A DNA stretch of 64,000 nucleotides from Planctomycetota bacterium. GTDB taxonomy: Bacteria; Planctomycetota; UBA1135. The position numbers and the translations under genes are program-made. How positions within the stretch are numbered: the stretch's first letter is position 1; each line of letters begins with the position of its first letter. Positions 14,154 to 17,595 of the stretch are shown piece by piece. The stretch spans positions 25,754-89,753 of the forward strand of contig JAPKBM010000005.1 in NCBI GenBank assembly GCA_026421205.1, read 5' to 3'. The notes below the pieces were generated by a model. It had not been told where the DNA came from and ran no database searches. It was given only the letters and a program-made list of their open reading frames with translations.

Positions 14154-14522
14154 ATGCCAACCATTAATCAACTCGTTCGCCACGGTCGAAAGCCCGTGCG
14201 GAAGAAGTCAAAGAGTCCTGTATTAGACAAATGCCCTCATAAGAGGGGCGTTTGCACTCAGGTAAAGACCATGACCCCAAAGAAGCCGAACTCGGCTCTT
14301 CGGAAGGTCGCTCGTGTTCGCTTGTCTAATGGCAAGGAGATCACGGCATATATCGGTGGTGAAGGCCATAACCTTCAGGAACACTCCATTGTTCTTGTGC
14401 GCGGTGGCCGAGTTCGGGATTTACCGGGTGTTCGCTATCACGTAGTTCGTGGAACCTTGGACTGTGCAGGTGTGGATGATCGGAAGCAGGGTCGCTCTAA
14501 ATACGGAGCCCGGAAAAGCTAA
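14154..14522 (+). CDS. rpsL: 30S ribosomal protein S12
   Basis: [38 protein letters not shown]. Confidence 0.99.
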
Positions 14523-14524
14523 TT

Positions 14525-14998
14525 ATGCCTCGTAGTTTTCGCTCAACACAGAAATACCAGAAGCCTGACCCAAAGTTCGGTTCTCTTCTGGCTACCAAGT
14601 TCATCAATCAGATTATGTCGGATGGCAAAAAATCGGTGGCGATGGACATCTTCTACGAAGCCTGCGAGATGGCCTCAAAGAAATTGGAAGAAGTCACTCC
14701 AGAAGAAGTTTTCTCTCAGGCGTGTGCCAATGTTCGCCCATCGGTAGAAGTCCGCTCAAAGCGAGTTGGTGGCTCCAATTACCAGGTGCCTCGGGAGGTT
14801 TCTCCAAAACGTGCGCAAACCTTGGCCATCCGTTGGATCGTAGGGAATGCGCGTAAGAAGAAGGGCATGCCAATGGCCAAGCGCCTTGCCAGTGAATTCA
14901 CAGATGCTTGTAAAAATACGGGTGCTTCCGTTCAATGGAAAGAGAATGTCCATCGCATGGCCGACGCCAACAAAGCGTATAGTCACTTCGCCTGGTAG
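14525..14998 (+). CDS. rpsG: 30S ribosomal protein S7
   Basis: S7 sequence (GGSNYQVPREVSPKRAQTLAIRWIVGNARKKKG). Confidence 0.99.
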   Translation: MPRSFRSTQKYQKPDPKFGSLLATKFINQIMSDGKKSVAMDIFYEACEMASKKLEEVTPEEVFSQACANVRPSVEVRSKRVGGSNYQVPREVSPKRAQTLAIRWIVGNARKKKGMPMAKRLASEFTDACKNTGASVQWKENVHRMADANKAYSHFAW

Positions 14999-15018: not shown

Positions 15019-15049
15019 GTGGGCGGCATTTTTGCCGCCCACTTTTTTT
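15019..15049 (+). terminator. Rho-independent terminator after rpsG
   Basis: GTGGGCGGC-ATTTTT-GCCGCCCAC followed by TTTTTTT. Confidence 0.93.
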
Positions 15050-15060
15050 ATTCTAGGCCT

Positions 15061-15522
15061 ATGGAATTAGAAATCATTCTCCTTCGGCTGAATAAGGAGT
15101 CGCCAAAGCGTTGCTCATTGACGCCTTTGCGGGGAAAGTCGGAATACCCGATTCAATGGATTCATTGCTCTCCTGGGGATCTTGTTGAGGTGGGTGAAGT
15201 CACCCTGCTGCACCCCGACGGTGATCGATTGACTCCAGCCGATGCATGCCGTCCACTCTTGCTTGTGGATTCTTCATGGCGGGATTTGCCCAAAGTCCTT
15301 TCGGGTGTACGAGGTACATTGCATCGGCGTCGGCTACCCGTTGAAATGCAGACGGCTTACCCGCGAAAATCAAAGACTTTTAAGGATCCGGATGCTGGCC
15401 TTGCCAGTATTGAAGCACTTCACGCGGCCTGTGCCTTCTTGGGTCGACGTTGGGATGACCTCTTGCATGGATACCACTGGAAAGAGGATTACTTGAGGCT
15501 AAACCAAGGCCTCTTCCCGTAG
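15061..15522 (+). CDS. Tsr3-like (DUF367/DTW-type SPOUT) aminocarboxypropyltransferase-like protein
   Basis: N-terminal SPKRCSLTPLRG resembles Tsr3 DPKKCSGKKL; LLLVDSSW resembles LDCSW; RRLPVEMQTAYPRKSKTF..ASIEALHAACAFLG and terminal YLRLNQGLF match Tsr3-type layout. Confidence 0.72.
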   Translation: MELEIILLRLNKESPKRCSLTPLRGKSEYPIQWIHCSPGDLVEVGEVTLLHPDGDRLTPADACRPLLLVDSSWRDLPKVLSGVRGTLHRRRLPVEMQTAYPRKSKTFKDPDAGLASIEALHAACAFLGRRWDDLLHGYHWKEDYLRLNQGLFP

Positions 15523-15531
15523 AATTCCTTT

Positions 15532-17595
15532 ATGGCGGTTTCATTGCTCCGGAATATTGGCATCGTGGCACACATTGATGCGGGGAAGACGACGTTAACG
15601 GAGCGTTTTCTTTTTTTGACGGGGGTGGAGCGTCGCATGGGGGAAGTTCATGATGGAGCGGCAACCATGGATTGGATGACGGAAGAGAGAGAACGAGGAA
15701 TCACCATTTCCGCCGCGGCCACCACGTGTCCATGGAGAGGGCACCAGATTCAAATCATTGATACCCCGGGCCATGTTGACTTCACCATTGAGGTTTCTCG
15801 TTCTCTTCGCGTGCTAGATGGGGTCGTAGTGGTTTTGGATGCTGTCGCAGGAGTCCAGGCGCAGACGGAAAATGTACTTCGTCAGGCGGATCTATTTGAA
15901 ATTCCAAGGATTGCATTGATCAATAAAATGGACCGCCCAGGCGCAAATTTCCAGAAGTCCATTCATTCTTTAGAGGAACGGGGGACCATTCCCGTTGTAC
16001 CAGTTCAAATTCCTATGGGGGAAGGTGAGGATTTTGTCGGAGTGATTGACCTCATCAAGCTTCAATCAATCTCATGGGGCGGAGAAAATGGGGAAGTCGT
16101 GGTCACCCAATCTATTCCAGAGTCATTGCTGCGGGCCGCGGAGAAAGGCCGGGATCTCCTTTGTTCCCGTGTTGCCGAAGAGGTTTCGTCTCTCGCTGAC
16201 CTTTACTTGGAAGAGGGAACGCTGAATCCTAAGCAACTCTCCGAAGGCCTACGCGTTGCGGTCCTTCAGAGGAAGCTAGTCCCTGTCTTTGCGGGAGCGG
16301 CCCTTTGTAATAAGGGAGTGCAACCCGTGTTGGATGCCCTTGTGGACTGGATGCCCTCCCCAGAAGACCGTCCATCCGTGAAAGGAAAAAATCCGGCTAC
16401 AGGGGCCCGCTTAGAACGCACACCCAAAGCTAGTGAACCTTTTTGTGCCCTTTGTTTTAAAATCTATCATGAGTCTTTTGGCGACCTAACGTACTTGCGT
16501 ATTTACTCCGGCACTCTCCGAGAAGGGGAGTCCGTCGGCGTCCCTAGGCTTCAGAAAACGGAGCGTGTCGAGAGGCTATTTCGAATGCATGCGGATTCTC
16601 GCGAGGCAATTCCCTCTGCAAGTGCAGGAGAAATTGTGGCCGTGATGGGTTTTAAGCATGCGCAAACGGGGGACACGCTTTGCTCCCTGGAAGAAGAGAT
16701 GCTCTTGGAGGGTTTGGATTTCCCAGACCCCGTCATTCGAATGAGCCTGGAGCCTCGTGAGCCCGCTGACCAAGATTCCTTGACGGCTGCCTTGCGTGTG
16801 GTTGCCAGAGAGGATCCTTCGCTGGTGGTGCAACTCGACGGGGATACCGGGCAAACCGTGATTTCTGGTATGGGAGAGCTCCATTTGGAAATCCTCCTCC
16901 ACCGCCTTGAACGAGACTTTTCTGTCCGACCTTTGGCGGGAAGGCCCCAGGTTTCTAGGAGGGAATTTGTAAAAACTCCACAGCGGGGGGTCGGCCGAGC
17001 AGAGAAGCGAACTCCCGATGGTGGCCAAGCCGTTTCCCTGACCTTGCAGGTCTCGCCAAGCGAGGCCCAGCTCATTCAGTGGCAACCTCATGGAATGGAG
17101 CCCATTCCTGCGGCATTACGGGTGTCTTTGCAAGAAGGCGTCGGGGCAATGGGCCTGACAGGGCCATGGGGTTATCCGCTGTCCGGTGTCACCCTCTCCG
17201 TGGCGGCTTGTGAGTGGACTCCGGGAGACAGCTCACCTTCTTTAGGCCTCCTTTTTGGCGCTTTTACGTCCGCGCTGTCCGATGCCATAAAGGGGAATAC
17301 GGGTTTTTTAGAGCCCGTGATGAATCTTAGCATTCATGTGCCCAAGGAGTTTTTATCCGGAGTATTGGCTGATTTGAGCTCTCGTCAAGCGGAAGTCCTT
17401 TCTGTCAATGCACTTACAGAAGAAGTCTTTGCGCGCGCACCGATGGATTGTCTTTTCTCCTATTCCACTGATTTAAGATCTTTATCCCAAGGGCGCGCTT
17501 CATTTCTTGCTGCCCTCGACGGATTTTCCCCGCTTTTGGGAAGTCGGGAGGCGAAGCTCCTGAAAAGATTAGGCGGTTCGCCTCTTTCTCCTTGA
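15532..17595 (+). CDS. Divergent elongation factor G (EF-G II / spdEFG2-like)
   Basis: Complete G domain (AHIDAGKTTLTERF, DTPGHVDF, NKMDRPGA), but domain IV lacks GGRGQYGHV and SYHEVDSSE signatures. Confidence 0.85.
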   Translation: MAVSLLRNIGIVAHIDAGKTTLTERFLFLTGVERRMGEVHDGAATMDWMTEERERGITISAAATTCPWRGHQIQIIDTPGHVDFTIEVSRSLRVLDGVVVVLDAVAGVQAQTENVLRQADLFEIPRIALINKMDRPGANFQKSIHSLEERGTIPVVPVQIPMGEGEDFVGVIDLIKLQSISWGGENGEVVVTQSIPESLLRAAEKGRDLLCSRVAEEVSSLADLYLEEGTLNPKQLSEGLRVAVLQRKLVPVFAGAALCNKGVQPVLDALVDWMPSPEDRPSVKGKNPATGARLERTPKASEPFCALCFKIYHESFGDLTYLRIYSGTLREGESVGVPRLQKTERVERLFRMHADSREAIPSASAGEIVAVMGFKHAQTGDTLCSLEEEMLLEGLDFPDPVIRMSLEPREPADQDSLTAALRVVAREDPSLVVQLDGDTGQTVISGMGELHLEILLHRLERDFSVRPLAGRPQVSRREFVKTPQRGVGRAEKRTPDGGQAVSLTLQVSPSEAQLIQWQPHGMEPIPAALRVSLQEGVGAMGLTGPWGYPLSGVTLSVAACEWTPGDSSPSLGLLFGAFTSALSDAIKGNTGFLEPVMNLSIHVPKEFLSGVLADLSSRQAEVLSVNALTEEVFARAPMDCLFSYSTDLRSLSQGRASFLAALDGFSPLLGSREAKLLKRLGGSPLSP

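Follow-up and report, generated by a model that had tools for sequence, protein, structure and literature searches.

The window, that is, the whole stretch of DNA analysed (64,000 nucleotides of a planctomycete genome), contains a str locus in which a gene encoding a 153-aa protein, with the N-terminal sequence MELEIILLRLNKESPKRCSLTPLRG, lies between rpsG and the gene for EF-G. The open reading frame, its coordinates, its two neighbours and the motifs quoted for it in a first-pass annotation were all recovered in the window. The relevant features are the following.

14154-14522: rpsL, a neighbour in the str locus
14525..14998, + strand: rpsG (S7), the upstream neighbour of the Tsr3-like gene
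15019..15049, + strand: terminator-like hairpin with a 10-bp stem and a 4-nt loop, followed by seven T, between rpsG and the Tsr3-like gene
15061..15522, + strand: gene for the predicted acp transferase of the pc1599 family (Tsr3-like, TDD superfamily), 153 aa plus stop
15109..15117, + strand: R17-C18-S19, counterpart of the K/R-C-T SAM-binding motif of Tsr3 (T19 in V. distributa Tsr3)
15268..15279, + strand: D70-S71-S72-W73, the D/E-x-S/T-W catalytic and SAM-orienting motif
15325..15414, + strand: R89-R90-R91-L-P ... T98-A-Y-P-R102 ... G113-L-A-S-I-E118, the family-specific conserved block
15532..17595, + strand: gene for the EF-G of the str locus, a divergent EF-G, 9 bases downstream of the Tsr3-like gene

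The first-pass annotation described the product as a Tsr3-like acp transferase. The profile matches, the predicted fold and the active-site signature all bear out this description, with acp activity itself as a prediction. The protein matches PF04034 Ribo_biogen_C (DUF367) over residues 64-151 (E 7.7e-6), the NCBIfam DUF367 model over residues 5-151 (E 9.3e-7, far under the model's own cut-off) and the NCBIfam 16S rRNA aminocarboxypropyltransferase model (E 1.1e-4, far below the curated cut-off). All curated Tsr3/DUF367 cut-offs lie above the scores obtained, namely, 26.1 against the Pfam cut-off of 29.9 bits for PF04034, 28.8 against 152 bits for NF002621, and 22.1 against 300 bits for NF053630. 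In an alignment of 30 relatives, PF04034 matches every member, with a best E of 2.5e-12, and PF03942 (DTW) matches 16, weakly; in the 153-aa protein, PF03942 gave no match at E <= 10. Comparison of profiles places the family nearer to Tsr3 (E 7.9e-15) than to DTW (E 5.7e-7), where the Tsr3 side consists of two sequences only, one of them partial. In the suggested check of DUF367 against DTW, the PF04034 match, the lack of a PF03942 match in the protein and the closer Tsr3 profile favour DUF367.

The structural evidence leads to the same relatives. Searching the PDB with the single 153-aa sequence retrieved no relative, and the profile of the 30 relatives retrieved the Tsr3 structures 5apg (E 7.7e-13) and 5ap8 (E 2.5e-7) with no other significant match. 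The AlphaFold2 model (pLDDT 92.3, pTM 0.88), when compared with the PDB by Foldseek at E <= 0.001, again matched only 5apg (E 3.2e-8, TMq 0.72) and 5ap8 (E 5.8e-6); E. coli TapT (9kz5) reached E 0.22. The protein is accordingly predicted to adopt the SPOUT fold of the Tsr3 type, and chance is excluded as the source of its likeness to Tsr3.

Judged from the alignment, the catalytic and SAM-binding signature of the TDD superfamily, D/E-x-S/T-W, is intact as D70-x-S72-W73: D70 and W73 are invariant, and 26 of the 30 relatives have S or T at position 72. In the upstream motif, C18 is invariant, position 17 is conserved in at least 90% of them and position 19 is S or T. Within the third block, R90, T98, Y100, P101, R102, G113, L114, A115 and E118 are invariant among the same 30 proteins, and the family-profile alignment pairs the block with RRRLPLLIAANPTHYGKPYILSTIEA of 5apg; RRLP...TAYPRKS...GLASIEA is the family's own. 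In the characterized enzymes, the D/E of the motif is the likely base, W places SAM for acp transfer and T19 touches SAM, while mutation of D and W strongly lowers the activity of both yeast Tsr3 and E. coli TapT (PMC7026641). By analogy with these two enzymes, we infer acp chemistry on a uridine of a tRNA or an rRNA: W73 would orient SAM with the acp group towards the substrate, and D70 would serve as the base that takes the proton from N3 of this uridine, so that acp3U and methylthioadenosine would be the products.

A bacterial family of this kind has been described before. Burroughs and Aravind reported pc1599 in 2014 as one of five TDD families, found mainly in planctomycetes, verrucomicrobia and chlamydiae, and proposed for it a nuclease role which predates the evidence that Tsr3 and TapT are acp transferases (PMC4275035). 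Against that published description, the distribution and the sequence of the 153-aa protein identify it as a pc1599 member: its relatives are planctomycete and verrucomicrobial, hence PVC-bacterial, and they are related to Tsr3 and distinct from both Tsr3 and DTW. The remark in the annotation that no bacterial member has been characterized appears to be true, since no paper assaying any pc1599 protein was found in the open-licence literature, but the family itself was already on record (PMC4275035).

To survey its distribution, 294 genomes of the phylum were searched. PF04034 identified 38 carriers, and strong matches to the 30-member alignment (E <= 1e-30) raised the number to 63; the weaker alignment matches (E 1e-6 to 1e-4) correspond to DTW proteins, which do not enter the count. 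Within the order to which the window belongs, 22 of 22 sampled genomes carry the gene. Those relatives that carry a name belong to Planctomycetota, among them the complete chromosomes Pla86 and Poly30 (the latter from Saltatorellus ferox), apart from a few records labelled Verrucomicrobiota or Opitutia; Saltatorellus is classified in Planctomycetia incertae sedis. Of 80 named loci, 62 have the gene flanked on its own strand by rpsG immediately before it and fusA immediately after it, and a further 10 have one of the two in place (62 to 72 of 80), some of them showing a single neighbour because the contig ends. The distances between Tsr3-like proteins correlate with those between rpsG proteins (r 0.79 over 69 loci, where permutations gave at most 0.15), in keeping with vertical inheritance. 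Outside the order, no widely common neighbour was found and the gene sits elsewhere, without ribosomal neighbours; in three families there, a gene which we named IspG-like from its sequence recurrently adjoins it. The order-wide presence and the str-locus placement, in many cases with a terminator-like hairpin in front of the gene and fusA directly after it, are apparently new. Two loci depart from the usual layout: in the relative L049 (5511-6600), rpsJ directly follows the Tsr3-like gene without a fusA match between them, and in the family-level relative L217 (7103-7981; G207:C6), the Tsr3-like and EF-G frames extend past their usual starts and overlap their neighbours.

The hairpin at 15019-15049 is G+C-rich (z -5.9). 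Of 56 relatives, 29 have a hairpin followed by T in the same gap, where shuffled sequences would give 2.3; the stems differ in sequence among the relatives. Since the hairpin and its T tract separate rpsG from the Tsr3-like gene, the latter probably starts a unit with fusA, 9 bases downstream, which would be reached by read-through or from a promoter of its own. This short gap behind the hairpin, together with the divergence of the str-locus EF-G, would suit a protein-modifying acp transferase that acts on the neighbouring EF-G, as the first diphthamide step does on EF-2. We consider such a role extremely improbable, since the characterized TDD enzymes all modify uridine-type RNA bases, and the gene is not beside fusA outside the order, nor does L049 have an adjoining fusA match.

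The str-locus EF-G is itself unusual. Its identity to the proteins of relatives is about 37-60% (best segment), even where their S12 reaches 97%, and it scores just under the TIGR00484 cut-off (642 against 659.4 bits). A second EF-G, 41% identical, is encoded elsewhere in the genome (G000:C8:4657-6699). Pairs involving spdEF-G divide the labour of EF-G between them, and by analogy such a division may possibly exist here.

The specific proposal of the annotation was an acp-modified base at position 966 in helix 31 (h31) of 16S rRNA. At this site archaea have acp3U and eukaryotes m1acp3Psi, and bacteria always have G or m2G (PMC6259748, PMC2584109). The genome's own 16S rRNA (contig C96) reads TTTAATTCGAAGCAACGCGAAG across h31, also given as TTTAATTCGAAGCAACGCGAAGAACC, and its alignment to E. 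coli rrsH assigns A965 and G966. Position 966 was G in all 13 carriers and all 30 non-carriers in the 16S alignment, and also in seven further carriers scored by motif inspection (20 of 20 carriers altogether); the partial 16S of carrier G109 fits as well. With G at 966, the proposed modification has no substrate base at that position: the uridine at SSU position 966 that characterizes Tsr3 proper is absent, acp3U966 was rejected on these 16S sequences, and the enzyme must act elsewhere than on Tsr3's target. The annotation was therefore right in its observation and wrong in its h31 claim.

An acp base at 966, or more widely in the h31 loop, as made by archaeal and eukaryotic Tsr3, would agree with the Tsr3-like fold and the ribosomal-operon location, the more so as archaeal TSR3 genes are likewise linked to the ribosomal super-operon, with bacterial DTWD2 linked to tRNA (PMC4275035). 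It is nevertheless very unlikely. Apart from G966 in carriers and non-carriers alike, the sole uridines nearby, U960 and U961, are common to carriers, non-carriers and E. coli. The genome also holds a PF03602 (RsmD-type) match (E 1.5e-35), which is supporting evidence only because the model is broad and matches archaea too, and no EMG1/Nep1 was found in it. At position 966, moreover, bacteria invariably carry G or m2G (PMC2584109).

The h31 survey covers families other than f29. In f29 genomes, among them G024, G048, G181 and G238, which are single-contig and 99-100% complete, neither the covariance model nor the pattern matched a 16S, a miss which is likely due to masking or to loss in the search filter. 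Among the 16S entries L113 and L121, G285, a close relative in the same family as the genome studied here, reads GAAGCTACGC in h31, where A968 is replaced by U968, and G028 reads GATGATACGC.

A uridine elsewhere in rRNA, as a new bacterial acp site perhaps in the 30S head, is a reasonable candidate target, though one we hold with limited confidence. An rRNA is favoured by the Tsr3-like character of the protein and its ribosomal location: the family stands closer to Tsr3 than DTW does, both by profile and by C-terminal motif, lacks the Cys-rich N-terminal extension of TapT, has kept its str-locus place over the long term and coexists with DTW in 16 genomes. On the other hand, no 16S position was convincingly U in carriers only, in an alignment analysis in which kinship was ignored (at position 1005, for example, every carrier has U, but so do 40% of non-carriers), and the ribosomal neighbourhood is confined to the order.

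The other main candidate is tRNA, where the protein would do the job of TapT (acp3U47) or modify another position such as 20/20a; we regard this as a serious possibility, if somewhat short of an even chance. In bacteria, acp3U has to date been reported only from tRNA (PMC6895100, PMC7026641), and the Y-P-R block looks like the Y-x-h-R block of DTW proteins. No TapT/DTW homologue (PF03942) was found in the genome, which makes the Tsr3-like protein its only detected TDD enzyme and is the reason why we slightly favour tRNA; the assembly, at 88% completeness, may lack a DTW gene that the organism has. Candidate substrates exist, since G46-U47-C48, the context of acp3U47, occurs in four of the nine tRNAs examined, those of the window and of the rRNA contig. 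However, tRNA-Arg(ACG), which in E. coli is modified by TapT, carries C47 in this genome, the protein is more Tsr3-like than DTW-like, and the gene is not anticorrelated with DTW. DTW proteins scored above the cut-off in 16 of 63 carriers against 46 of 231 non-carriers (Fisher p 0.38), so that carriage of the Tsr3-like gene is independent of DTW and a simple swap with TapT across the phylum was rejected. The 16 carriers with both enzymes probably use them for different jobs.

Taken as a whole, the protein likely uses SAM to transfer acp to a uridine of some translation RNA, at a site other than position 966 of 16S. In this genome, a tRNA uridine, for example U47 in the variable loops with G46-U47-C48, would be the likeliest target and another rRNA uridine the next; what weight remains goes to other targets or to a protein without acp activity. 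What stands is a conserved Tsr3-like predicted acp transferase which is a well-defined orphan of the str locus in a planctomycete order. That the pc1599 family as a whole might be a bacterial rRNA acp transferase, with its target uridine in 23S or at a 16S position other than 966, is a more doubtful proposition. If true, bacteria would gain a type of hypermodified rRNA base hitherto known only from archaea and eukaryotes, at a different place, and acp modification of rRNA is treated as a trait of these two domains. A Tsr3-like enzyme long kept in the main ribosomal locus of an order, with its canonical target base missing, raises the question of which RNA and which base it modifies. Knowing this would show whether the superfamily had already split into its rRNA and tRNA branches in bacteria, and the carriers with complete chromosomes (Saltatorellus ferox Poly30 and Pla86) should make an answer attainable.

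When compared with known systems, the protein shares with pc1599 as published its PVC distribution, the absolutely conserved W and the D/E-x-S/T-W motif, while the str-locus linkage seen here is absent from the 2014 text (PMC4275035). TapT/YfiP and DTWD1/2, the tRNA acp3U enzymes (PF03942), belong to the same superfamily and have a D-x-T-W motif, but are clearly more distant than Tsr3 by profile and fold; TapT carries a Cys-rich N-terminal extension, whereas the planctomycete protein starts at the core, and the Y-x-h-R block of DTW proteins has its look-alike in the Y-P-R block of the pc1599-type relatives. Tsr3, the archaeal and eukaryotic SSU rRNA acp transferase, provides the sole significant relatives of solved structure (5apg and 5ap8), and has in common with the planctomycete protein K/R-C-S/T, D-x-S-W, RRLP and the C-terminal W-x-x-x-F/Y-L-x-x-N. 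The two differ in that identity is about 25%, the A-N-P-x-x-Y-G of Tsr3 is replaced by T-A-Y-P-R-K-S, the SAM contact A76 of V. distributa Tsr3 is L, and the target base U966 is missing from the rRNA of the host.
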